Source of the DNA: an uncultured Saprospiraceae bacterium
GTDB taxonomy: Bacteria > Bacteroidota > Bacteroidia > Chitinophagales > Saprospiraceae
DNA: 64,000 nucleotides
Assembly (NCBI GenBank): GCA_938045585.1
Contig: CALIAU010000014.1
Span: 62,001-126,000 of the forward strand
Direction of reading: 5' to 3'
Shown here: positions 19,039 through 45,031 of the stretch, one piece after another
Layout of the letters: every line of letters begins with the position of its first letter
How positions within the stretch are numbered: the stretch's first letter is position 1
Notes under the pieces: model-generated
Seen by the model: the letters and a program-made list of their open reading frames with translations, nothing else
The model's database searches: none
What the model was told of the DNA's origin: nothing
Program-made: the position numbers and the translations under genes

Positions 19039-19332
19039 GATTTAGAGTTTTGGTTATTAAATAAAGTAAATAAGCGCTCTGTTTTTCAGAGCTTGTTCAG
19101 ATTAAAAGGGGAATACTTAAAGGAGCGGGGAATCTCCGTGATTTGTTTATGAGACACAAATATAGTATCACCTCCCTCTATTTATTTTCTTTTAGAGTCG
19201 GTAATTTTTGCATATAATTTTCTTGCATGCAATATCTAAAATTGAAATATCGGACAAGTCTTTCTTTATCAATTTACTACATAATGAAATTTTAAAATTT
19301 GTCTTAATGAGAGAAGGAGGGACGTAGAGCTT

Positions 19333-19394
19333 GCCTGCTTGCGCAAGCAGGCAGGATGAAGGGATGAAGAGCTTGCCTGCGTGCGCAAGCAGGC
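19333..19394. repeat. Tandem pair of GC-rich palindromes
   Basis: Bases 19333-19352 form a perfect 20-base palindrome (GCCTGCTTGC and its reverse complement). Bases 19375-19394 repeat it with one change. The two copies are separated by GA-rich sequence that is itself partly repeated. Each would fold as a strong hairpin in either strand. Related sequence recurs near 23010-23043. Confidence 0.85.
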
Positions 19395-19463
19395 AGGACG
19401 GAGAGATGAAGAGACGGAGAGATAAAGAGAGAGCGACATGTTCGGTCAACTCCTAATTAACAT

Positions 19464-19501
19464 GAAACCTGCCTTCCAAAGAACGCAGACAAGCCGCGAA
19501 A
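19464..19501. repeat. Left arm of a 38-base inverted repeat
   Basis: This 38-base sequence is the exact reverse complement of 22832-22869. The arms bracket the CAP gene and the TonB-dependent outer membrane protein gene (3.3 kb). Outside the arms no transposase is present. Confidence 0.9.
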
Positions 19502-19565
19502 CCTGGAAACCGTGAAACTGCGAAACCTGGAAACCGTGAGACCGCGAAACCGCGAAACCGATTAC

Positions 19566-24812: not shown

Positions 24813-27689
24813 TTATCGAATCAAAGTAGCAGTTCCGTTAATTTCTTCTGTTATTGAGGAAACTTCATAGGTCGAATACCAAACATATACATCCCCTGGA
24901 GCTGGGTCACCATCCTTGGTGCCATCCCAAAGTTCTTCTGGGTCGTTTGTTTCAAACATTAGATTTCCATACTGATTATATATCCTCAATTCGTAATTAG
25001 AAACTGCAGAAGGACAGATAATAAATGGTCCAAAGAACTTATTGCTTTCCAAGTCCTCATCCATAGACATATTTCTTAAGCCAGGATATAAGGCATTTGG
25101 CCATCGTACAAAATTCTCTGTGTTTATATTTGGCGATACTGCGTTAGATGTATAATTCTGCTGACAGAAATCTGCTGTAACGATATATTCAGAATCAAAG
25201 TCGTCTACAAATATTTCAGCCTGGTTTGTTTGACCACTCGACCAAACAATATTGCTCAAGCCCGTAGGATCCTCTATACGGATTCTCAATAAGCCCGTCT
25301 CACATGAAATAGTATCGTCTGCAATTAATATAATATTAGTAGTTGGAAGATCATCCAAACCTATGGTTATCTCATCGCCTATCTCAAATTGGCAGGCATC
25401 TATTGCGAGTACACTGTAGGTGCCATAATCAGGAACAATTACATTTAAGTTATTGCCTATTTCATTTCCTGCCGCATCAAACCATCTCACATTAGAAAGA
25501 CCATCTGCAACAGGTCCATTTAATTCGAGCTGTAACTCGCCTGTTGCACAGGCTCTATCTACATCAAAGTCTATGTTGATTTCTTGTGGTTGTGGAAGAC
25601 CATTTGGTATTGTTATCTGATCTGCAATAATAAACCCACAGGTATCTACTGCTGAAAAGGCATAGGTTCCAAATTCTGTGACTATCGGATTTGGTCCCTG
25701 CAATTCCAGCAAAGGATTGCCTAATCCATCAAACCACATTATATTATTAAATATGCCACCAAACAATTGTAACTCTATAACTCCTTCGGCACAGTATCTA
25801 TCTATATTCCAAGCAAAGATGTAGTCTGCCGCTTCAATGTTAGGTGCAGAAAGATCAAGCGCCTGTGTTGCAAGGATTCCACATTGGTCTAAGACATCTA
25901 CAGACAAGGAGGTCATACCACCTGAATCTATTTGAACTGCTATCTGAGGCACGGTATCACCAGTACTCCAGTCTATACTGTAAGGCGCTAGACCTCCACT
26001 TGGGAAGGCAGCAACGCGTATGGTACGATCTGTACACCAAGATGAATCATCAATTTGTAAGGCAACCATGGTCGAGTCCAAAACCGAAATAGTTGCTGTA
26101 TCACACAGTGTAAAACAACCTCTTTCATCGTTTATCGTAACTTCTACTATGGGCATTCCTTCCTCTTCTACTTCTATGCTAGGTGTTGTTTCTTCCGTAT
26201 TCCATAGATAGGAATCAGCTCCTTCCACAAAGGCATCTTCAATTACAAAAATTGGATCATTTGGACAGAATGCTGTATCTACTAGAGTGATTGTAGGTAT
26301 ATCAAAACCTATCGCTCTTGCTACTGACTCTGCCATGTAATCTACTATCGCAGTATCCGCAACAGTTGTTAGTTCATATTCTCTCTGCCCAGTAGGCCAA
26401 TCGAAGATGATTGAATCTGGCAACATCTGCGCACATTGTTCTAACTCTGGTGCCATAGAACCTCCAGCATTCCCTAAAGAATCTGCAACGATTAAATGCG
26501 CTGCTAAAGTTCCTACTTCCGTCAAGTAAGTTCCCCAATACGCAGAGCCATCCTCAGCTATCGATTCTAACTCACCAACATTAAAATTCAAACCTAAAGT
26601 CCTAGGGTATAATTTACTCCAGATTAATTCTCCATCTGGATCTAGTTTAATCTTAAATGCATTGGAAGATTGAACCATATTATTAACAAAGACAACAACT
26701 TCTCCTGAAGCGACAATATTTCCGCTTTCCACTTCTGTTACATGATTTAAAAATGTTTGCACTCCAAGACCTCCCAGAACAATTTGTTTAGACCATAGCA
26801 AGTCTCCATCTCGGTCTGTTTTTAAAACAAAACCGTTTACAATACCTTGAAGGTTCTGATTAGTTCCTGCTAAAAGATAACTTGTATCAGAAAGCATTAG
26901 TACATCGTTTCCTACATTAAAGCCTCCTAAAGAATCAATATAATTTTTTGCCCATAGTGGATCTCCAATAGAATCTAATTTCATTAAAAGTCCATCTGCA
27001 AAATTAAATCCTAAATCGGTTGTCCATCCACCAATTAATAGTGAGGAATCCTCAACCATACTGGAACCAAAAGCCAAAGGACGTGCATTTACTCCCATTG
27101 AATCTGTTAACAAGACTCTATTTGCCCAATTTGCATCACCATTATCGTCCAAACTAAAACAATTCACTCCGTTTTCTCCACCCTCCAAAGAATAGGTAGT
27201 TGCACCAAGTAGTGTAAAATCCTCTCTACTTGTTATTGTAATTGGATAATTCACATTATCAAATTCGTACTCTTCGAACCCACCAAAACCTTTAGTCCAA
27301 ACCACATCTCCCTGCGGATCTAACTTAATAATCACGTGCTGGTTTTCTTGTCCCAATGTAGGATCCAAAATTATTGAAATGGCTAAACTATCATCTCTTA
27401 AACCTACAATTTCACCATCTAATACATATCTCCAATCCTCTTCAATGGTAATATCTCTGCTCCAAGTGGATTCTCCTTTAGGATCAAATTTTGTAACATT
27501 AAGTGCAGAAAAATTTCCTGCAAAGTCAATAACACCATTGTAGGCATAATACCCTCCTGTTGTCTGGGTTAATCCAAGTGCGATTTCCTGCCTCCCAGAG
27601 ACAGGATATGTACGATGAAAGTTAAACTGGGCACTTACTTCCTGAACAAAAAAGAAAGCCACTAAAATGAGACTTGATATGATTCTCAT
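24813..27689 (-). CDS. T9SS type B (gliding-motility-associated C-terminal) surface protein
   Basis: 958 residues. The signal peptide (MRIISSLILVAFFFVQEVSAQ) is followed to about residue 400 by repeated blade-like units of the form GDxxWxKxxxxxxG (for example GDVVWTKGFGG, GDPLWAKNYID, GDLLWSKQIVL), suggesting a beta-propeller. Several Ig/SprB-like domains follow (VALQIDDSSWCTDRTIRVAAFPSG and others). It ends with ELRIYNQYGNLMFETNDPEELWDGTKDGDPAPGDVYVWYSTYEV, the conserved gliding-motility-associated/type B T9SS sorting domain (residues about 905-950). It should be secreted and attached at the surface by the T9SS. Role unknown. Confidence 0.88.
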   Translation of the reverse strand: MRIISSLILVAFFFVQEVSAQFNFHRTYPVSGRQEIALGLTQTTGGYYAYNGVIDFAGNFSALNVTKFDPKGESTWSRDITIEEDWRYVLDGEIVGLRDDSLAISIILDPTLGQENQHVIIKLDPQGDVVWTKGFGGFEEYEFDNVNYPITITSREDFTLLGATTYSLEGGENGVNCFSLDDNGDANWANRVLLTDSMGVNARPLAFGSSMVEDSSLLIGGWTTDLGFNFADGLLMKLDSIGDPLWAKNYIDSLGGFNVGNDVLMLSDTSYLLAGTNQNLQGIVNGFVLKTDRDGDLLWSKQIVLGGLGVQTFLNHVTEVESGNIVASGEVVVFVNNMVQSSNAFKIKLDPDGELIWSKLYPRTLGLNFNVGELESIAEDGSAYWGTYLTEVGTLAAHLIVADSLGNAGGSMAPELEQCAQMLPDSIIFDWPTGQREYELTTVADTAIVDYMAESVARAIGFDIPTITLVDTAFCPNDPIFVIEDAFVEGADSYLWNTEETTPSIEVEEEGMPIVEVTINDERGCFTLCDTATISVLDSTMVALQIDDSSWCTDRTIRVAAFPSGGLAPYSIDWSTGDTVPQIAVQIDSGGMTSLSVDVLDQCGILATQALDLSAPNIEAADYIFAWNIDRYCAEGVIELQLFGGIFNNIMWFDGLGNPLLELQGPNPIVTEFGTYAFSAVDTCGFIIADQITIPNGLPQPQEINIDFDVDRACATGELQLELNGPVADGLSNVRWFDAAGNEIGNNLNVIVPDYGTYSVLAIDACQFEIGDEITIGLDDLPTTNIILIADDTISCETGLLRIRIEDPTGLSNIVWSSGQTNQAEIFVDDFDSEYIVTADFCQQNYTSNAVSPNINTENFVRWPNALYPGLRNMSMDEDLESNKFFGPFIICPSAVSNYELRIYNQYGNLMFETNDPEELWDGTKDGDPAPGDVYVWYSTYEVSSITEEINGTATLIR

Positions 27690-27801
27690 AGATATGAGTT
27701 TAATTATGCATTTTAAAACACTAAATATATAATATAATAGCTTCTCAATCTATTATACAGCGCTAAAGAAAGCGATTTTAGGCTCAATACGGACAGTAAA
27801 A

Positions 27802-29613
27802 TTACTCAGAATAGATTTCTGCTATGTGCGAAGCACATTTTTCCCGAATTACACGCCTTTTTAGCTTCAAAGTAGGTGTTAATTCAGAGGCAGTTCCATC
27901 TGTCTTAATTGGCTCCCAAGGCTGACAAATTAGCTTGAATTTCTTTACCTGCTCCACCTTACTAAAAAGAGGGTTTATCTTATCCACACAGGCCTGGACA
28001 CTGGCTATAACCTCAGGAGATTTTACCAGCTCCTCCATATTCGTCCAATTGATATTTTTTTGCTTGCAAAATTCTTGCAATGCCGCTTCCGAAGGAATAA
28101 TGAGTGCCGACACAAATTTCTTTCCATCTCCTACTACCATCACCTGTTCCACAAGAATATCTTCTTTCAATTTGCTTTCTATTGGCGCCGGAGCAACATA
28201 CTTACCACCAGAAGTTTTTAAAAGTTCTTTTTTCCTATCCGTAATTTTCAGATATGGCACTCCACCTGGACCATCGACTAACTTGCCAATATCTCCAGTC
28301 TTTAGATAACGCTTGCCTTCGATTTCCCTAAACACCTCTGCTGTTTTATCCGGCTTATTATAATACCCTTGCATTATATTAGGTCCTGCCGCTAAAATCT
28401 CCCCAGCACCTGGACCATAATTCTCTTCGTCCAAGTCGATATGCAAATCCACACTTTCAATCACTGGTCCCACCGTACCTATCTTCGCATATTGAAAATC
28501 ATTTACACTGATTGTGGGCGAAGATTCCGTCAAGCCATATCCTTCTAAAATCGGTATGCCTGCCGCACTAAACACACGCGCAATCTTTGCTGGCATAGGA
28601 GCTGCTCCCGTTACGATTCCCCTCAACTGTCCACCCAAGGCTGCTCTCCATTTACTGAATATGAGTTTGTCTGCAATCGCAAACTTAAAACCTGAAAGGG
28701 GTTGACCATGCTCATAATTATCGGTCATCTCTAAGGCCCAGAAAAATAGCTTCTTTTTTGCTCCTGTCAAGGAGAGACCCTTACTGTAAATCTTATCGTA
28801 TATCTTTTCTAGAAGACGTGGAACCGTTGTGAAAAAATTAGGCTTTACCGTCTGTAAGTCCCCCGTCTCTCCACCAAGATTATCCGTTCCTGTACAATAC
28901 ACCGTGTGCGCCTTATTTAAGTAACCATAAATTACTGCGCGTTCAAAAATATGACAGAAGGGTAAGAAACTTAATACATTTTCATTCTCGGTTGGCAATA
29001 GCGATTTACAGGTATCATCCACTACCGTTTTAATATTAGTATGTGTCAGCATAACCCCCTTTGGATTACCTGTAGTACCTGAGGTATAAATTATCGTTGC
29101 TAAGGCATCAGGATCTACCTCCGCTGCGGCAGCTTTTACCTCGGCTATTTTATTTTTAGAAAATAGACTCTCCCAAAACACTCTATCCGATCTCTGCTTA
29201 TCCATCGTAAAGATCTCTTTCAAAGACGGTGCTTCTTTTTGTGCCTCCGCTACCTTATCGAATAAATCAAGATCACCTACAAAGCAAGCTTTCACCTCAG
29301 CATCATTCAATATATATTTATACTCCTTCGGACTTATGGTAGGATACAGAGGAACATTGATAATCCCCAGTAACTGCGTAGCTATATCTACGATCAACCA
29401 CTCCGGTCTATTTTTGTAGCTTACGATAGAAATCTTATCTCCAGCCTTATAGCCTCTTTCCAATAAACCACTCGCCAATTCTTCGGCTGCATTTACAAGT
29501 TCTTCCGTGCTATAAAAGGACCAATCATTCCCCTTCTTCTGACCAATACTTTTTTTAAGTGGACTCTTTTCTTTTTGTTGATAGAGATAATCAAATAAGC
29601 GTGTAACTTTCAT
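27802..29613 (-). CDS. Long-chain fatty acid-CoA ligase (AMP-forming)
   Basis: About 603 residues from the preferred ATG at 29613 (MKVTRLFDYLYQQ); an ATG at 29640 would add nine residues. The adenylating family motifs are YTSGTTGNPKGVMLTH (P-loop), EGYGLTESSP, the LKTGDIG motif and ITDRKKELLKTSGGKYVAP. It activates long-chain fatty acids to acyl-CoA through an acyl-AMP at the membrane or cytosol. It fits with the acyl-CoA dehydrogenase and PlsC in this window. It stands alone, without adjacent beta-oxidation genes. Confidence 0.93.
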   Translation of the reverse strand: MKVTRLFDYLYQQKEKSPLKKSIGQKKGNDWSFYSTEELVNAAEELASGLLERGYKAGDKISIVSYKNRPEWLIVDIATQLLGIINVPLYPTISPKEYKYILNDAEVKACFVGDLDLFDKVAEAQKEAPSLKEIFTMDKQRSDRVFWESLFSKNKIAEVKAAAAEVDPDALATIIYTSGTTGNPKGVMLTHTNIKTVVDDTCKSLLPTENENVLSFLPFCHIFERAVIYGYLNKAHTVYCTGTDNLGGETGDLQTVKPNFFTTVPRLLEKIYDKIYSKGLSLTGAKKKLFFWALEMTDNYEHGQPLSGFKFAIADKLIFSKWRAALGGQLRGIVTGAAPMPAKIARVFSAAGIPILEGYGLTESSPTISVNDFQYAKIGTVGPVIESVDLHIDLDEENYGPGAGEILAAGPNIMQGYYNKPDKTAEVFREIEGKRYLKTGDIGKLVDGPGGVPYLKITDRKKELLKTSGGKYVAPAPIESKLKEDILVEQVMVVGDGKKFVSALIIPSEAALQEFCKQKNINWTNMEELVKSPEVIASVQACVDKINPLFSKVEQVKKFKLICQPWEPIKTDGTASELTPTLKLKRRVIREKCASHIAEIYSE

Positions 29614-29687
29614 ACAGACAAAATAGCATTTTCGCTTCATATTTTCGGAAATAGTAAATGTTTATTCTTTCCCATACTATTTCTTTG

Positions 29688-29790
29688 GGGCCTACCCTGC
29701 ATACACAGGGTCGCTACGTTACGGGTCTCGCAATTCTGCTCGGCCACAAGACAGGTCTTGTGTCTTAACAACCCTGCACATCGCTAGTCC
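29688..29790. other. GC-rich palindromic intergenic element with 8-bp hairpin
   Basis: This block holds CCCTG-CATACA-CAGGG (29695-29710) and a perfect 8-bp stem (CACAAGAC-AG-GTCTTGTG, 29745-29762) within an AT-rich gap. It differs from the REP-like element at 5324, although the GC-rich palindromic style is alike. It follows no U-tract and does not look like a terminator. It could be a REP relative or a structured RNA; function unknown. Confidence 0.45.
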
Positions 29791-29892
29791 AAGAAGGGAT
29801 TATTATAGTCTTTTTAGTATTCGTTATGTCCTTTTTGAAATCGGGCCACCCACCTAAGGATAAGTACTAAGTTTTTAATGATAACGGTCCAT

Positions 29893-30124
29893 AAAACCAG
29901 CACGAAGTGCAGAAACCAGCGAAGCAGAAACCAGCGAAGCAGAAACCAGCGAAGCAGAAACCAGCGAAGCGGAAACCAGCACGAAGTGAAAAAACCCGCG
30001 AAGCAAAACCCACACAAAGTGTAAAAACCCGCGAAGCAAAAACCCACGAAGCAAAAACCAGCGAAGCAAAAACCAGCGAAGCGGAAACCAGCACGAAGTG
30101 CAAAATCCCGCACAAAGTGCAAAA
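29893..30124. repeat. Array of about 14 mini-hairpin repeats (GAA/AAA triloops)
   Basis: Units of about 15 bases have the pattern AAACCA-GC-GAA-GC-AG. The core alternates between GC-GAA-GC, (G)CAC-GAA-GTG(C) and CAC/ACAC-AAA-GTG(T). Stems are 2-4 base pairs around a GAA or AAA triloop, and variants change both strands of the stem together. One of 14 units (near 30051) has a broken stem. The flanking unit is conserved (AAACC[AC]). Frames through the array are low-complexity Lys/Pro/Ala or their antisense and are not real proteins. Unit 15-bp periodicity keeps frames open by chance. Confidence 0.85.
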
Positions 30125-30127
30125 CCC

Positions 30128-30149
30128 TTTTAACACTACCGTGTTAAAA
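30128..30149. terminator. Palindromic hairpin at the end of the SCP2 gene
   Basis: A perfect 9-bp stem (TTTTAACAC and GTGTTAAAA) encloses a TACC loop. It immediately precedes the stop of the SCP2 gene read on the minus strand, and the arms provide U/A-rich ends. It is probably the terminator for that gene; the stem is AU-rich, so efficiency is uncertain. Confidence 0.65.
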
Positions 30150-30443
30150 CTATCCCACCAAAGACTGCAATTTCATTGCGAGTCCCATATCTCCTTTTAT
30201 TTTAATCTTACCACTCATCACCGCCATCATAGGATTAAGGTCACCAGCTTTGAGTTTTTGAAGAGTCTCGACACTTGTTGTAATCGTACAATCTGCTTCT
30301 TTATCTTCAGCAGAAACGACATTTGCATCGCCGGTGCCATCAATAAATATTGGGTTCTCGTCTAGGATAAACTTAAAGGTTGCTCCGAGAGGAGATATAT
30401 TGCCTGCTTGTTCTTGAATTTGGCTAATTACTTGATCTATCAT
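30150..30443 (-). CDS. SCP2 sterol-transfer-like domain protein
   Basis: 97 residues from the ATG at 30443 (MIDQVISQIQEQAGN). The single SCP2 domain shows ADCTITTSVETLQKLKAGDLNPMMAVMSGKIKIKGDMGLAMKL, the hallmark KxxG-DM segment that ends the domain. SCP2 proteins bind hydrophobic ligands such as acyl chains or sterols in the cytosol. An earlier upstream ATG at 30479 adds a non-conserved 12-residue extension, so I prefer 30443. It lies downstream of the mini-hairpin array in reverse orientation. Confidence 0.88.
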   Translation of the reverse strand: MIDQVISQIQEQAGNISPLGATFKFILDENPIFIDGTGDANVVSAEDKEADCTITTSVETLQKLKAGDLNPMMAVMSGKIKIKGDMGLAMKLQSLVG

Positions 30444-30596
30444 TGTAGAAATTTTAAAATCTGTTGCAATATACAACATATAGTTCTTAACTAAATTTCA
30501 AAGAGAAAGTTCCTAAAGCCGACAGAAATCCAGTTTAGTCAGTTATTTAACATTGCATGGCGAACCATTTATGCTCTATAAACATTTACTTAGTGT

Positions 30597-30854
30597 ATGT
30601 CTGATAAAGTATATAAACCTATCGCCTGCCAGCTGTATGATCAGCTGGAGATTCTTTCCATGCGGGGAGAAGAATGCACTATTCAATACCTGAATCAAGG
30701 TGAATCAAAAACTGCATCTGGTAAAATCGTAGATCTCTTTCCTATTTCTAGTGTGGAATATCTCAAATTAGATAGCGGTAAGACACTGCGCCTGGATATG
30801 CTGGTAAAAATAAACGACATCGATTTTTCTTGTGACAGTGCCTGCTCACACTAA
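30597..30854 (+). CDS. Rho-binding antiterminator (Rof-like)
   Basis: 85 residues: YKPIACQLYDQLEILSMR...CTIQYLNQGE...SVEYLKLDSGKTLRLDMLVKIN. This matches the layout of E. coli Rof (Sm-like fold, YxPI-x-C-xx-YD-x-LE start, RLDxI near the end). Rof binds Rho and blocks its RNA-binding surface, reducing Rho-dependent termination. An extra Cys-rich C-terminus (SCDSACSH) is present. It is the only plus-strand gene between SCP2 and the anti-sigma candidate, and its stop lies 23 bases from the convergent anti-sigma stop. Call is from remembered family pattern. Confidence 0.75.
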   Translation: MSDKVYKPIACQLYDQLEILSMRGEECTIQYLNQGESKTASGKIVDLFPISSVEYLKLDSGKTLRLDMLVKINDIDFSCDSACSH

Positions 30855-30876
30855 TTTCTTCTAAGAAATATTTCAA

Positions 30877-31671
30877 TTACAAACGACTAAGTAGCTCAGC
30901 CGCTTCTTTCGTATGATCCGCTTTTGGATTTGACGCGAGCGCATTGAGTAAGGTTTTTGCCGTATCCGTATTTCCAAGTTCCAGGAACGTCAGAGCCTGG
31001 TACCACACTCCATGATCAGTCAATAAATAATTATCAGAGTTCGCTACTTTTTTAAAGTCCTCTAAGGCCTCCGCATGCTTTCCCGATGCATATAAAGAAA
31101 CGCCTCTGTAAAGATTCCACTTTATGTCTTGCTTCTCCGCTAAGAATTTATCCAGATAGGGTATTACCTGCTCATATTGTTTCTGATTATACAATTCTGA
31201 CATTTCTTTAATTGCATCATCCGAAGTCCCTCTATCTGTAATCTCTAAGGGCATTGGTTCAAAATAAGAAGCCATAGGCACGGTAGACTTGTTAGGCTCT
31301 TTTGTGGAAGCCGTATAGGTAGTCACTGCAACTAATAGAGCTAAGAGAGTAACAATCAGTAGAAATATTTTTACCCAAGGCATGGAGCCTTTGCTTTGTA
31401 CTTGTATTGTATTGGATTGCGCGTTGTTTTCATTGATTTTGGACTTGGCGGTAGTTCTAGTTTTTGTTTTTTTGATATTACGCAATCTGTTGCGTACATC
31501 AGATACTTCGATTTGTTCGATACCGCGCTTAAGCGAACTGCGTAGCTTTAGTTCTTCTTGCAAAACAGGATGCTCATTGAGCAGACGTTCAAAGTCACTC
31601 TTCTCACTAGCGCTCATGCTATTCAGGATGTAGGCATCTATTTGCGTATCAAACTTATCTACGAGATCCAT
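30877..31671 (-). CDS. Membrane-spanning anti-sigma factor candidate with periplasmic TPR domain
   Basis: 264 residues. The N-terminal ~90 residues are cytosolic and resemble anti-sigma starts (DAYILNSMSASEKSDFERLLNEHPVLQEEL), with no zinc-binding HCC motif. A transmembrane helix covers about 99-118 (WVKIFLLIVTLLALLVAVTTY). The rest is a periplasmic TPR-like domain (residues ~135-264: KWNLYRGVSLYASGKHAEALEDFKK). The start overlaps the sigma factor gene by 13 bases, the classical arrangement for sigma/anti-sigma pairs. The periplasmic half is closely paralogous to the product of 36332-36907. The anti-sigma role is inferred from gene order and topology. Confidence 0.8.
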   Translation of the reverse strand: MDLVDKFDTQIDAYILNSMSASEKSDFERLLNEHPVLQEELKLRSSLKRGIEQIEVSDVRNRLRNIKKTKTRTTAKSKINENNAQSNTIQVQSKGSMPWVKIFLLIVTLLALLVAVTTYTASTKEPNKSTVPMASYFEPMPLEITDRGTSDDAIKEMSELYNQKQYEQVIPYLDKFLAEKQDIKWNLYRGVSLYASGKHAEALEDFKKVANSDNYLLTDHGVWYQALTFLELGNTDTAKTLLNALASNPKADHTKEAAELLSRL

Positions 31672-32258
31672 AATGTTGTTTTTATATGTGGTTCATTTGT
31701 CACCATCTCTCTTAATTGCTTAAGACATTTTGATTTTTTAGTTTTTGCAACCGATTCATTTGCATAGCCTAATTCTGTAGCAATTGCCTTCAGTTTCATT
31801 TCTTCAAAATAGAAGTACTTCAAAACCTTCTGACAGCCCTCTCCTAATTTCATAATGAGTTCGTTGAGCACGTTTGTTTCTTGGGTACGTTCCAAGACCT
31901 GCAAACTGCTTTCTGAAATATCAATAAAATCCTCATCGACATCCTCTATCTGCGCAAGCTTAGAACTTTTTCTAAGTTGATTAAACCAAAGGTTGCGAGC
32001 GACACTATAGATATAGGTATTCAACTTACATGTCAATTTAAATGACTTATCTCTTAGTTTACTGTGTAAGACAATCAGTGTATCCTGAAACACATCTTCT
32101 GCCTGCGTCTCTGTACCATTATTCTTATGCACTAAACTGTATACCGTATTTGCATAGCTATCATAGAGCAATGAAAATGCTTTGTCTTGGTCACGTTTAT
32201 CTACAGATTGCATCAAGTGAATAATCTGTGTTTCTTTTGCTGTATTGCTCTCTTTCAT
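31659..32258 (-). CDS. ECF-type RNA polymerase sigma-70 factor
   Basis: 199 residues from the ATG at 32258 (MKESNTAKETQ); a TTG at 32267 is the other option. Sigma region 2 spans about residues 25-95 (AFSLLYDSYANTVYSLV ... AEDVFQDTLIVLHSK ... YIYSVARNLWFNQLRK). Region 4 spans about 140-190 (CQKVLKYFYFEEMKLKAIATELGYANESVAKTKKSKCLKQL). It should direct transcription of a small regulon, possibly including its own operon. It follows the CHAT gene by 40 bases and overlaps the anti-sigma by 13 bases. Confidence 0.9.
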   Translation of the reverse strand: MKESNTAKETQIIHLMQSVDKRDQDKAFSLLYDSYANTVYSLVHKNNGTETQAEDVFQDTLIVLHSKLRDKSFKLTCKLNTYIYSVARNLWFNQLRKSSKLAQIEDVDEDFIDISESSLQVLERTQETNVLNELIMKLGEGCQKVLKYFYFEEMKLKAIATELGYANESVAKTKKSKCLKQLREMVTNEPHIKTTLWIS

Positions 32259-32298
32259 ATATAACAACTTAGAGCTAAAGGTAACACCTAGAATAGGA

Positions 32299-35148
32299 TT
32301 ATTTTCTATGTCGGAAGAAGAAAAAGCCCAAAATAAGCAAGAGACATGCTGCTAGGTAGGGAAAGAATTCTGAGAAAGACTGTGACGTCGTGATGGCATC
32401 TGCATTTCCAGAAAAAGTAAGCCCTGCCCAAAAATGGGGATGCGCCATGAGCTTATTCGAATTTTCTAGATAATCGAGTTTGGCCGTCCTTAGTGCAGAT
32501 GAAATATTACTCTTGTCTAGTTGACTATAAAAATTACCAACGATATCTGCAGTTGCACAGTCGTTTATGGACCAGAGTGAGGTCACTAGAGAAGATACCC
32601 CTGCCGAACGGAACGCCTTGCCTAGATGTATTACACCCTCTCCTGCCTTCATCTTTCCACTCCCCGTATTACAAGCACTCAATACCGCCAGATCTGCATT
32701 CAATTGCATATTCTCCAAATCCTGAATAGATAGGTAGTCATCATAAAAGATAAGTTTATTAAAGGCATCATCCTCATCATCTAAACAGGCATGTGTAGCT
32801 AAATGAATGATACTTGCAGAATCCATTTTTTCAAAATTTGCAAGACTAGCGCGTTCTGAATAAAATGCCTGCGCAGAAAGATTCGCACTAATATGTTCTA
32901 ACTCTTTTTTCGTACAGCCCAAGGCACTCATTTTTGCATCTGCAACACAATTCCGCTCCTCTGTTTTCTCCCCTTCTGTAAATGGTGCAAAAGAAATAGC
33001 ACTCAAAGAATTAAAATTCGATCTTTGATTCTTGGAGTCCAACCAAAGTTCGGCGGAGGAAGCATACTGGATATCTTTTTCACGCAATAAATAGGACAGT
33101 TCGCTAAAACCAAAGGCATCTGCATCCTCCCCTGTTAGCAATACCTCAAATGGTAGATAATACAATTCTCCAATCTGACTTATCACAAAGGAAGTACTAC
33201 TATGTAATTCTTCCGGAATTAATTCTTTATACAAAAGCTGACTAGCTGCCTTAAAGTTAGGCAGATCTTGCGCATTAAACGCATCCAATGGATTTTTACG
33301 AATGATGTTTAAAACACTACTGAGGGCAGCCTTATTCCCCTCCGTCTTCTCAATGGTATGCACCCCTTCCCTATCTTTCTTCACCCAGGCACAATACCAG
33401 TGTTCGTCAGTTTCATAGAAGCTCAGAAAACTTTGATTTTTCTCTAGTTGATTTTTTAAAGCACTAAGGTCCAAAGAGTTTATGGCATACTTCGCTTCAT
33501 AATACGCTGGATAATTATCTTCTAGATATTTTTGGTGGTCAGCATAGGCGCGGGTAGTTTGGAGCTCCTCCTCTTTCCACTGATTTACAACTGCCTCTCC
33601 TTCCTCATCCTTGGGTTTAAATTCATGAATTTTACGCTTTAGCGTATTCAGTTCTTCCTTAAATTCTATGTCTTTATCAAGCAACTCTTGTGGTATGGAA
33701 GAACTTGTTCGCGCTAGTTTGTCTTGGATATCTTCCTTCAGAACAACTGCTTTGTTATCTTCTATGAGTTGGAGAATTTCTGTGAAGGTTTCTGGGGACT
33801 TGTCTTCAGCGTAGATTTCTAGCAATAACTCTAAGTAGGCCGGATAATGTTCTTGGAGTTGTTTGTTTAAGAGGTATTTTGAGTGTTTTGAAGAGAGTTC
33901 TTTTTGAAGGAATTTTGCACCGTTGAAAGCTTGGCGGTAATTCCGAAGTGCTGCTTTAATATATTTTGTATTAAAATCTATAGAAAATTTCTTCCTAAAT
34001 ACCTTTGCGGCTCTACTGTGTGTTCTAACGTTGTTGATATTAAAATTTGCCAAATCATTAAAGTCATCATATTCATTTAGATCATTAGATAGATCAACCC
34101 CAAGATAAGTTAACGCTTTATTAATATAAAATTCTGCACTATCTTGTTGACCATTTTCATAATATGAAATACCTAAAAATGATGTATAATTTGAAAGTGC
34201 TTTTTCAATACTTAGTTCACGAGAGCTTCTATTTAAATATGCCGTACTAAAGTTTTTAATAGCAGCATCGTAATCCTTAGTATTAAAATAATTAGAACCT
34301 AAATGGTAATAAAACTCTTCAATAAGTTCACTATTATCAGTTTGTGAAATTTCAATAGAGTTAAACGTTTCACTCGATTTAAGAGTGTCACCAATCTCAA
34401 AATATGTATTTGCGATAGCAATTTTCAAGTCAATTTCTAAATCTAACCTCGTTTTTTTCCCTTGTAGTTTGGATACAGTTTTATAGGCTTTATTTAAGCT
34501 TAGCAAGGCCTCCGAGAACTTTGAGTCTTGAAAAAAATTCATTCCAATATTAAACAACAATTTAGCACGTATCTCAATATCCTTATTTGGATCAACTTTT
34601 GTTAAATATTTATTTGCTAATTCCGACGACTTTTGAATATCTCCTTTATTCCTGTATACATTTAAAAGTAACTCTAATGTGTTGAATGATTCATTTAAGT
34701 GTACCCCATTTTTTTCAAACGAAGCCAAGGCCTTTTCGGTATATTGAATGCATTTTGTATAGTTAGTTAACATGTATTCACTGTAACCTAAATTTCCCAT
34801 AGTAAATGTATATTCTACATCAGTTTCTAAAAGGTATTCTACAGAATACTTATATGCTGAATCTAAGCTCTCACTAGCCCCGTGCAAATTGTCAGACAAA
34901 TTATATACAACATTCAATATATTGTATTCATAAACTAATTTTTTCCAGTTTCCTATCGATTTAAGCAAGCCAACTGCCTTTAATCTTTCATCTATACATT
35001 CATCTATGTTATTTAATTCATACTTATTATCTGAAATTAAAATAATACTATCAATTTTTTGATTCACTAATGAAGTATCAATCATAGCAGCAGTCAATTT
35101 ACAATTGGCTGCTGCTATGAGAATCAAAATTATTACAATCTTATTCAA
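32299..35148 (-). CDS. Membrane-anchored TPR-CHAT protease
   Basis: 949 residues. A signal peptide (MNKIVIILILIAAANCKLTAA) starts at a TTG (35148); no in-frame ATG lies before the previous gene's stop. Residues ~40-450 are tetratricopeptide-like helices (SEALLSLNKAYKTVSKLQGKK, YDAAIKNFSTAYLN). Residues ~560-880 are a CHAT caspase-like domain with the catalytic pair in HLATHACLDD (His ~786) and LSACNTGSG (Cys ~826). A transmembrane helix lies at the extreme C-terminus (LAACLLLILGFFFF). Predicted topology places TPR and CHAT in the periplasm, facing the anti-sigma's TPR domain. It is 22 bases from the T9SS gene upstream and 40 from the sigma factor downstream. Confidence 0.9.
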   Translation of the reverse strand: MNKIVIILILIAAANCKLTAAMIDTSLVNQKIDSIILISDNKYELNNIDECIDERLKAVGLLKSIGNWKKLVYEYNILNVVYNLSDNLHGASESLDSAYKYSVEYLLETDVEYTFTMGNLGYSEYMLTNYTKCIQYTEKALASFEKNGVHLNESFNTLELLLNVYRNKGDIQKSSELANKYLTKVDPNKDIEIRAKLLFNIGMNFFQDSKFSEALLSLNKAYKTVSKLQGKKTRLDLEIDLKIAIANTYFEIGDTLKSSETFNSIEISQTDNSELIEEFYYHLGSNYFNTKDYDAAIKNFSTAYLNRSSRELSIEKALSNYTSFLGISYYENGQQDSAEFYINKALTYLGVDLSNDLNEYDDFNDLANFNINNVRTHSRAAKVFRKKFSIDFNTKYIKAALRNYRQAFNGAKFLQKELSSKHSKYLLNKQLQEHYPAYLELLLEIYAEDKSPETFTEILQLIEDNKAVVLKEDIQDKLARTSSSIPQELLDKDIEFKEELNTLKRKIHEFKPKDEEGEAVVNQWKEEELQTTRAYADHQKYLEDNYPAYYEAKYAINSLDLSALKNQLEKNQSFLSFYETDEHWYCAWVKKDREGVHTIEKTEGNKAALSSVLNIIRKNPLDAFNAQDLPNFKAASQLLYKELIPEELHSSTSFVISQIGELYYLPFEVLLTGEDADAFGFSELSYLLREKDIQYASSAELWLDSKNQRSNFNSLSAISFAPFTEGEKTEERNCVADAKMSALGCTKKELEHISANLSAQAFYSERASLANFEKMDSASIIHLATHACLDDEDDAFNKLIFYDDYLSIQDLENMQLNADLAVLSACNTGSGKMKAGEGVIHLGKAFRSAGVSSLVTSLWSINDCATADIVGNFYSQLDKSNISSALRTAKLDYLENSNKLMAHPHFWAGLTFSGNADAITTSQSFSEFFPYLAACLLLILGFFFFRHRK

Positions 35149-43483: not shown

Positions 43484-44815
43484 ATGAATTTAGTAAATCT
43501 GCTTAAGGATCAGGTTACTTCGGGGTTAGCTGGTCAAGCAGCTAAATTTCTTGGAGAATCAGAGTCTGGTGTTACAAAAGCATTAGATGGTATATTCCCA
43601 TCTCTTTTAGGACAAGTTATTGGTATGTCAGAATCTAAGTCTGGACTTGATGATATCTTCAAGATGGCAAAGAATGCTGACCCAAGCATATTAGATAATA
43701 TCGGAGATATCTTCGGATCCACTAGCAAAGTGACTGGCCTTATGAATGGCGGTGGTGGCTTACTTTCTACTCTTCTAGGAAACAACTTAGGAGGAATGAT
43801 AGAAAAAATTGCTGGCTTCGGAGGAATCAAAACTGGATCTTCTTCTTCTCTAATTAAAATGGCAGCGCCGTTTTTAATGAGTATGGTAGGTCGTTATATG
43901 AAAAATAAAGCATTAGATGCTGTAGGTCTTGGAAAATTCCTAGGATCTCAGAAAGCGAATGTAAGCAGCGGTATGCCTTCAGGACTTGGAAACATCTTAG
44001 GACTTAGTGGTCTTGGAGATATGGTTTCTGGTGTTGCTGATGGAGGTAAGAAAGTTGTAGGTGGAGCTGCTGATGCAGGAAGAAGAGTTGTAGGTGGAGC
44101 TGCTGACCTTGCAGGTAAAGGAGTAGGTGCTGTTGGTGATGTAGGAGAAGCTGCTGTAAAAACTGGTGGTGGATTATTGAAGTGGTTATTCCCACTTTTA
44201 CTTATCCTAGGTCTTGCTAGTTACTTTGGTTACAGCACTTGTCTTGGAGACAAAGTTGCTGACGTAACAGGAGATGTTATGGACAAAACAGGTGACATGG
44301 CTGGAAAAGCTGCGGACATGGCAGGTGATGCTGCTGGTGCTGTTGCTTCTGGTGCTGGTGCACTTTTAGGAAATGTAAACGAAGCTGCGAAGGCTGCTCT
44401 TGATAAAGTATCGTTCACTGCAGGTTCTGCTGGTGATCAGATCAACAAGTGGATGGAAGGTGGAGCTAAGGGTGACAACAGATTTACCTTTAGAAACCTA
44501 AAGTTTGCAACAGGTTCTGCAGAAATATCAGGAACTTCTGGTGTGGAAGTAGACAACCTTGCTGCTATTCTTAAGGCTTACCCAGACTCTAAAATCAATG
44601 TTTCTGGTTACACAGATAACACGGGAGATGCTGGTAAGAACAAGATGCTTTCAGAAGCTAGAGCAAACGCTGTACAAGCAAGATTAATTGCTGCAGGTAT
44701 TAGCGCGGATAGAATCTCTACTCAAGGAATGGGTGATGCTGATCCAGTTGCAGACAATGGTACTGCTGAAGGAAGAGCGCAAAACAGAAGAATCGAGGTT
44801 ACTTTTTCTAAGTAA
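43484..44815 (+). CDS. DUF937-transmembrane-OmpA fusion protein
   Basis: 443 residues. Residues ~1-180 are a DUF937 (YidB-like) domain (VTSGLAGQAAKFLGESESGVTKALDGIFPSLLG). Residues ~185-230 are Gly/Ala-rich (KKVVGGAADAGRRVVGGAAD). A single transmembrane helix covers ~232-250 (LLKWLFPLLLILGLASYFGY), followed by another Gly/Ala-rich stretch. The C-terminal OmpA peptidoglycan-binding domain (~330-443) has KFATGSAEISGTS, VSGYTDNTGD and DPVADNGTAEGRAQNRRIEV. The protein could tether a cytosolic DUF937 assembly across the inner membrane to peptidoglycan. A strong terminator follows. Codons are more GC-rich than its neighbours because of Gly/Ala. Confidence 0.88.
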   Translation: MNLVNLLKDQVTSGLAGQAAKFLGESESGVTKALDGIFPSLLGQVIGMSESKSGLDDIFKMAKNADPSILDNIGDIFGSTSKVTGLMNGGGGLLSTLLGNNLGGMIEKIAGFGGIKTGSSSSLIKMAAPFLMSMVGRYMKNKALDAVGLGKFLGSQKANVSSGMPSGLGNILGLSGLGDMVSGVADGGKKVVGGAADAGRRVVGGAADLAGKGVGAVGDVGEAAVKTGGGLLKWLFPLLLILGLASYFGYSTCLGDKVADVTGDVMDKTGDMAGKAADMAGDAAGAVASGAGALLGNVNEAAKAALDKVSFTAGSAGDQINKWMEGGAKGDNRFTFRNLKFATGSAEISGTSGVEVDNLAAILKAYPDSKINVSGYTDNTGDAGKNKMLSEARANAVQARLIAAGISADRISTQGMGDADPVADNGTAEGRAQNRRIEVTFSK

Positions 44816-44885: not shown

Positions 44886-45031
44886 TAGACGCTAGACGCT
44901 AGATATTAGACTGATGGGATCTAATAACAAAATAGTATTTAGCACTTTAGTCTTTAGATATACATAAGATTAGTAACTAGCAAAATCTCCTATCTAGCGT
45001 CTAGCGTCTAGCGTCTAGTGTCTGGTGTCTA
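44886..45031. repeat. Heptamer arrays in inverted orientation (TAGACGC / TAGCGTC)
   Basis: Left arm (44886-44911) carries GACGCTA-type heptamers. Right arm (44993-45031) carries TAGCGTC heptamers, three perfect and two changed (TAGTGTC, TGGTGTC). The first 18 bases of the left arm are the reverse complement of part of the right arm, so the region could form a large stem-loop between the DUF937-OmpA and methyltransferase genes, which converge here. Confidence 0.8.

Follow-up and report, generated by a model that had tools for sequence, protein, structure and literature searches.

Within a 64,000-nucleotide stretch of DNA from an uncultured Saprospiraceae bacterium (contig CALIAU010000014.1, positions 62,001 to 126,000; hereafter the window), the gap behind a gene for an SCP2 sterol-carrier domain protein carries a tandem array of 14 short hairpin units joined by the word AAACC. 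By hand reading, the array begins 23 nt past the SCP2 stop codon, 3' of the gene and in sense, and the coding strand carries the complementary word GGTTT. Among the loci examined, none has a longer hairpin tract of the dispersed, genus-specific repeat family to which the array belongs, one in which pairing is kept and stem sequence is not.

The array behind the SCP2 gene

Each unit consists of the linker AAACC (AAATCC once), one or two bases, a short stem arm, a three-base loop, a second arm and, usually, two purines, with unit lengths of 14, 15, 18 and 19 bp. The original prediction, made from the letters of the sequence, had described 14 such hairpins with GAA or AAA loops, one of them with a broken stem, and direct reading confirmed this description: stems are intact or nearly so in 13 units and broken in one, and the loop is GAA in 12 units and AAA in two. 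The core GC-GAA-GC is found in units 2-5, 7, 9, 11 and 12, GCAC-GAA-GTGC in units 1 and 13, CAC-GAA-GTG (outer pair lost) in unit 6, and GCAC-AAA-GTGC in unit 14. The remaining units are listed in Table 1.

Table 1. Features of the array and its neighbourhood (window coordinates)
Feature	Position	Strand	Remarks
14 AAACC-linked mini-hairpin units and last linker	29894..30127	(-)	upstream SCP2 gene is coded on the minus (GGTTT) strand
14 units without last linker	29894-30121		
Linker starts, units 1-7	29894, 29913, 29928, 29943, 29958, 29973, 29992		
Linker starts, units 8-14	30006, 30025, 30040, 30055, 30070, 30085, 30103		last linker at 30122
Units 2-5, 15-bp tandem copies of GC-GAA-GC	29913..29972	(+)	units 2-4 are identical 15-mers
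Unit 8, ACAC-AAA-GTGT	30006..30024	(+)	relative to unit 1: compensated G-C to A-T, loop GAA to AAA
Unit 10, broken stem (ACGAAGC)	30040..30054	(+)	direct reading
Second 112-bp half, diverged duplicate of 29893-30004	30005..30116	(+)	17 differences, ungapped comparison
9-bp hairpin TTTTAACAC-GGTA-GTGTTAAAA	30128..30149	(-)	directly after SCP2 stop codon, before first GGTTT
SCP2 sterol-carrier domain gene	30150..30479	(-)	3' end precedes array; PF02036, 1.8e-20; 109 aa; stop codon 30150-30152
AMP-binding (acyl-CoA synthetase-like) gene	27802..29640	(-)	downstream of array, same strand; PF00501
Octamer array GAAACC-NN, sister member of the family	19494..19560	(-)	after another stop codon

Tandem Repeats Finder (TRF) reports the array both as a 15-bp repeat and as two 112-bp halves with an 87% match. 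Because units 2-4 are identical and the two halves are recognizable, the array was partly built by copying. Stem differences between the halves include one compensated pair change (units 1/8) and one compensated lengthening from GC to GCAC (units 7/14), as well as two uncompensated differences (units 3/10 and 6/13); covariation within the window array alone is thin. The prediction had taken covarying stems as a sign of selection on the fold and had set this against recent slippage. Inside the array the covariation is mixed and part of it is plain duplication, whereas genome-wide the hairpin geometry is kept by complementary changes, and family members with different stems still pair.

The same intergenic gap holds a second palindromic repeat (window 29688-29800), with arms ACCCTG..CAGGGT and ACAAGAC..GTCTTGT as read by eye.

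A dispersed family with variable stems and a fixed triloop

Two species of the genus were compared, that of the genome to which this DNA belongs (G000) and a sole other one (G001; genome 82% complete); C-numbers below denote contigs and L-numbers extracted loci. The family is written in two words, the octamer GGTTTC-NN on the coding strand and, on the other strand, the mini-hairpin unit AAACC-A-stem-C-RNA-G-stem-RR (R, purine), whose stems (GC, GCAC, GCCC, GTCC, GGGC, GTGC and TTCGCC) differ yet are complementary. With the window array as query, BLAST found six places in G000, including the array itself, and four in G001; a pattern search allowing two mismatches found 22 and 16, respectively, with the double change GCAC..GTGC to GCCC..GGGC in 6 of the 22. 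Sixteen units with 4-bp stems, hand-picked from known units, were aligned: 98.3% of cells pair as opposed to 84.8% after shuffling, and both bases vary at three of the four pairs. A covariance model built on this alignment matched 42 times in G000 and 12 times in G001. The window array is not a unique object. A search of 118 other Saprospiraceae genomes under stricter filters gave only two weak matches, which by eye are probably chance in coding DNA.

Many loci were extracted through hairpin-based queries, and counts over all 557 inter-linker segments are biased accordingly. The strongest evidence that pairing is kept comes from a less biased test, in which segments between neighbouring linkers of contigs C14, C15 and C13:40001-120000 were taken whatever their stem or loop, once the window array and three further BLAST-matched places in these regions had been removed (n = 267). 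A triloop closed by a stem of at least 4 bp spans 7 of these 267 segments, with 7 distinct stems, against a shuffled mean of 0.52 (maximum 2 in 100 shuffles). Loops of 4, 5 and 6 bases are at chance, and a loop of 2 occurs twice against 0.48 (maximum 3). When stems of 2 bp or more are admitted, the excess is smaller (21 segments against 9.92; shuffled maximum 20). Over all 557 segments, triloops with stems of at least 4 bp number 48 against 1.87, again with other loop lengths at chance; at a stem of 3 bp the one-base loop also exceeds chance (11 against 4.55), because GC-GCA-GC can equally be read as CGC-A-GCG. In 392 kb of G000, 35 triloop hairpins (stem of at least 2 bp) are flanked on both sides by AAACC, about one third of them supplied by the window array (11 of its units appear among those listed), compared with 0, 1, 1, 2 and 0 in five dinucleotide shuffles of the same DNA.

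The loop letters are likewise restricted. The oligonucleotide d(GCGAAGC) itself is unusually stable, and A-A sheared loops behave like G-A ones in stable mini-hairpins. More broadly, d(GNA) triloops are described as a stable DNA family in which a C-G closing pair is preferred (PMC5815330). Among the 84 triloop hairpins that span one of the 557 segments (unfiltered), 73 have a C-G closing pair, and 67 of these 73 show R-N-A on the AAACC strand, with the mirror type in two; the R-N-A rule also holds for 14 of 16 hairpins of the less biased test (counted by eye). An accepted set of 73 units, obtained from 85 spanned hairpins by removing 12 through a hand list of stems before loops were counted, has G-N-A loops in 58 units, A-N-A in 10 and others in 5; an A precedes the stem in 58, and a two-purine tail follows in 60. 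Judged by their sequence, the family units obey the C-GNA-G rule of stable DNA mini-hairpins, and the link to d(GCGAAGC) drawn in the prediction appears to extend across the family. Because the units follow this rule, the fold probably matters in DNA, and what is conserved is probably the ability of the non-coding strand to form a DNA mini-hairpin. We infer that the commonest stem, of just 2 bp, has no sensible explanation other than a mini-hairpin of this DNA type.

These patterns need not reflect selection on the fold, since stems would be expected to stay complementary as well if whole units were copied from site to site or if hairpins helped the strand to switch template. The fold may be kept by selection or by repeat copying, and both are compatible with the data.

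A broad distribution was considered and rejected. An exact-pattern search gave 25 stretches in genome contigs and 3 in viral contigs, most of which resemble chance in coding DNA by eye; intergenic GGTTT-like text was seen, again by eye, only in L011 (a Saprospiraceae metagenome-assembled genome) and L035 (a Chitinophagaceae one). The covariance model (R1) had no matches in the genomes of L011 and L035 and one weak match (E 0.47) in that of L019. About 100 kb from each of four Saprospiraceae genomes showed no conspicuous family of linkers and hairpins, a weak negative given that only about two cases per 100 kb would be expected at the rate of G000 (7 AAACC cases with a stem of at least 3 bp in 392 kb). 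Periodic repeats of 7-9 bp are nevertheless present among these genomes, strongly so in G002 (L244-L248), in which 7-, 8- and 9-bp repeats reach 131, 68 and 100 per 100 kb. Periodic repeat text may be common in the Saprospiraceae. A quasi-palindrome, CCTGCCTNCNTTCCTTGGAAGGCAGG (L099 1807-1832), matches 18 of 237 loci, some of them overlapping, and adjoins AAACC arrays in the loci read. A search of the open-access literature, for part of which only the top-ranked matches were listed, gave no report recognized as this repeat family.

Position, orientation and turnover at gene ends

Of 195 gene ends of G000 followed by a gap of at least 100 bp, 161 have no array, 29 have one in sense and 5 have one in antisense only. 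In the sense arrays the stop codon and the first linker are 0-84 nt apart, and no more than 47 nt apart in 25 of the 29. Among 112 gene ends of G001, two carry sense and three antisense-only arrays, and the orientation rule is not apparent. Hairpin clusters of both genomes with the nearest called gene end within 60 nt are 3' and sense in 20 of 23 cases, 3' antisense in one and at 5' ends in two; octamer-only clusters at the same distance are 3' and sense, with GGTTT on the coding strand, in 7 of 8. At more than 60 nt (n = 20), 7 hairpin clusters are 3' sense, one is 3' antisense and 12 lie nearest a 5' end; the window array is miscounted among these 12, because its SCP2 gene, at 109 aa, is shorter than the 110-aa cut-off. 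Where both strands of a convergent gap carry clusters, the order is GGTTT then AAACC, with GGTTT beside the plus-strand gene, in 6 of 6 cases, and orientation therefore follows the gene, not the replication fork. Many other family members directly follow stop codons.

Gene gaps comparable between G000 and G001 number 53, of which 6 carry an array in G000. Three of these 6 were set aside: the gap at C2 (221 vs 5 bp), where a called open reading frame start enters the array; that at C10, where projection gave a negative length; and the window's own, where a gene was skipped. The three usable gaps are all longer in G000 than in G001 (349 vs 14, 422 vs 299 and 318 vs 109 bp), while the 47 gaps without arrays have medians of 90 and 104 bp, respectively, and none of the 17 that reach 150 bp in G000 falls under 60 bp in G001. 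The 349-bp gap (C13:108590-108938; L068 8590-8938; L192) holds two opposed arrays between convergent genes, which in G001 overlap at their stop codons by eye. The words of the family turn over, since the window array's gap in G001 has no array and holds other palindromic sequence instead, while the octamers at 19494 correspond to mini-hairpins there; the few comparable arrays are not conserved.

Adjoining that octamer array in the window is a 42-bp repeat (19318-19430) with the palindrome CTTGCCTGC..GCAAGCAGGCAG. Elsewhere in the window, a small protein (30597-30854) gives a sub-threshold match to ROF, a modulator of Rho termination, and TRF reports further short tandem repeats at 44035-44106 and 44993-45031, with 33-bp and 7-bp units.

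Explanations and known repeat systems

We conclude that the array expanded locally within a mosaic of gene-end repeats specific to the genus. Our tentative preference, held at somewhat under even chances, is that these repeats spread by hairpin-aided copying. When single-stranded, the AAACC (template) strand would fold as a DNA mini-hairpin and stall copying, whereupon the strand would switch template. Such switching would duplicate units, as in the 15-bp and 112-bp duplications of the window, perfect palindromes and move words between gene ends, the sites where insertions would be least harmful. Copying driven by a reverse transcriptase was considered and rejected, as no RVT_1 match was found in G000 or in G001 (82% complete).

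Several points weigh against hairpin-aided copying. The template-switch step is hypothetical, and the comparison on which any rate or direction of change would rest covers two species. Uncompensated stem changes occur, as single changes in 2 of the G000 pattern matches and in at least 4 of the 16 in G001, and in unit 10 and the outer pair of unit 6 of the window array. The loop letters could reflect descent from a few ancestral units. Folded as DNA, the AAACC strand is no better than shuffles (z -0.80) and forms long-range pairings (GGTTT strand, z 0.47). As RNA, by contrast, this strand folds better than its shuffles (z -4.64, for a stretch that includes the 9-bp hairpin behind the stop codon), and antisense RNA from it is thus a possibility. 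Above all, GGTTT is oriented with the coding strand of whichever gene lies nearest; this points to a link with transcription, and palindrome growth alone leaves it unexplained. For the copying model this is the chief unexplained fact; for an RNA model, it is the triloop and strand rule. Weighing these, we favour hairpin-aided copying first, an RNA role at gene ends second and a DNA switch third.

An RNA element at gene ends, in which sense GGUUU and its hairpins would act as a terminator chain or as a 3' block against exonucleases, is possible though rather unlikely. The prediction had named mRNA 3' end structure as a potential role, and the position of the array after a stop codon in sense orientation fits. 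So do the near-gene hairpin clusters, drawn from loci partly extracted by hairpin queries, and the order within convergent gaps. Post-stop hairpins (stem of at least 5 bp, first 60 nt) are in excess in G000 (78/223 vs 36.7 shuffled; 5' side, 62/236 vs 54.5) and slightly so in G001 (35/134 vs 25.7; 5' side, 42/160 vs 38.9). However, the stable-DNA triloop sequence sits on the non-coding strand, the gene-end counts of G001 lack the orientation, and the sense-strand RNA fold is no better than shuffles (z 0.54). Rfam models gave no match up to E 1 in window 27000-33000. Compared with an intrinsic terminator (a GC-rich stem of at least 5 bp, then a U-run), the array has stems of 2-4 bp and one weak terminator-like site; 2-bp stems are too short for an RNA terminator, and the unit has no U-run. 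Moreover, a canonical terminator precedes two arrays in the G000 gene-end count and a few others by eye, and such arrays are therefore probably absent from the mature transcript. Replacement of terminators by arrays is not indicated either, canonical terminators being about equally rare with and without arrays in G000 (2/29 vs 9/161).

By analogy with phage N4 promoters, supercoiling could extrude the C-GNA-G hairpins of the template strand and so create a topology-dependent barrier or binding site. The genus would then have spread N4-promoter-type mini-hairpins behind many genes, as arrays that sense torsion or resist single-strand binding protein, with the fold inherited and not the letters; we regard such a switch as distinctly unlikely. 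Hairpin stems of phage N4 are 5-7 bp long. In the N4 virion RNA polymerase promoters as described, a C-G closing pair and the loop G and A are required for extrusion, the template-strand loop is the one resistant to single-strand probes, and non-conserved stem bases are free (PMC4496689); the family has the same closing pair and loop letters, also on the template strand, and its stems vary too. The N4 stem is nevertheless longer (7 bp in the cited case against mostly 2-4 here), and the phage promoters lie at gene starts.

An element like the repetitive extragenic palindromes (REPs) and bacterial interspersed mosaic elements (BIMEs), moved by a Y1 (REP-associated tyrosine, RAYT) transposase, is improbable. 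Within one REP family the stem sequence is conserved, while the stems here vary. REPs are described as short palindromes of the gaps between tandem or convergent genes, lying mostly on the 3' side (PMC3733652, PMC6006769), a position shared by family clusters near a gene end, and Y1_Tnp matches number two in G000 and one in G001. Unlike REPs, the family units lack a GTAG or CGTC foot (GTAG is seen only across a loop variant), have stems of mostly 2-6 bp with free sequence and a fixed triloop, and are oriented by the gene. The three Y1 genes, examined at L065 5369-6157, L099 1935-2206 and L100 2437-3160, adjoin other palindromes: perfect TGTACCTATAGACAGGGAT palindromes on both sides of the G000 gene at C13:45506 (L065), two copies on the 3' side of that at C23:16885, and palindromes seen by eye around G001 C47:4514. 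The distance from the Y1 gene at C23 to one AAACC array is about 330 bp. The recombination-substrate and nuclease-recognition roles proposed in the prediction gain no support here, the search bearing on them being that for Y1 transposases. The Y1 protein of G001 carries NHLH and YIHNNP, as in Bacteroidetes subclass 2.6 in the published classification (PMC6006769).

An ordinary minisatellite, with slippage of a 15-bp unit and incidental hairpins, is about as improbable: the identical units 2-4 and the 112-bp duplication bear it out for part of the window array, but for the family it is contradicted by dispersed members, whose stems differ from one another and yet pair around a three-base loop. 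That the array encodes a low-complexity peptide is scarcely credible, for although it is overlapped by four open frames (102, 89, 64 and 152 aa), neither of the two tested (102 and 152 aa) has a Pfam match, the differing unit lengths shift the frame and many other members directly follow stop codons; the noncoding nature proposed in the prediction probably holds.

Other intergenic repeats offer partial parallels. The heptamers of Xanthomonas and Nostoc (GGGAATC / GGGGAYT), whose arrays are reported to vary in length between related species (PMC4692102), share this variation and the position at stop codons. They differ in that the family has units of 8 or 14-19 bp, hairpin units with complementary stem changes, and a linker, GGTTT, with only GG and thus without the runs of 3-4 G for a G-quadruplex. 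TAACTGA direct repeats are reported from Beggiatoaceae, Cyanobacteria and five Bacteroidetes; in the Bacteroidetes cases cited, the gaps of close relatives are shorter and show no obvious repeats (PMC4679880). They too form short-period arrays in intergenic DNA, but as a direct heptamer that in the main genome of that report lies mostly before start codons (PMC4679880), in contrast to the hairpin unit described here.

Families of intergenic repeats at gene ends are found in many bacterial genomes and are still unexplained. Gene-end intergenic repeats as such are known; what appears new here, as judged from the units' letters, is a unit with variable stem and fixed triloop that would fold as a DNA hairpin; any benefit to the host is hypothetical. 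The family provides a clean handle on such repeats: across dozens of units the stem letters vary, while pairing, loop length and, mostly, loop letters are constant, and which strand carries the stable hairpin is fixed relative to the gene that lies nearest. It thus lets one ask whether a DNA hairpin, rather than an RNA hairpin, drives the spread or the use of such repeats.
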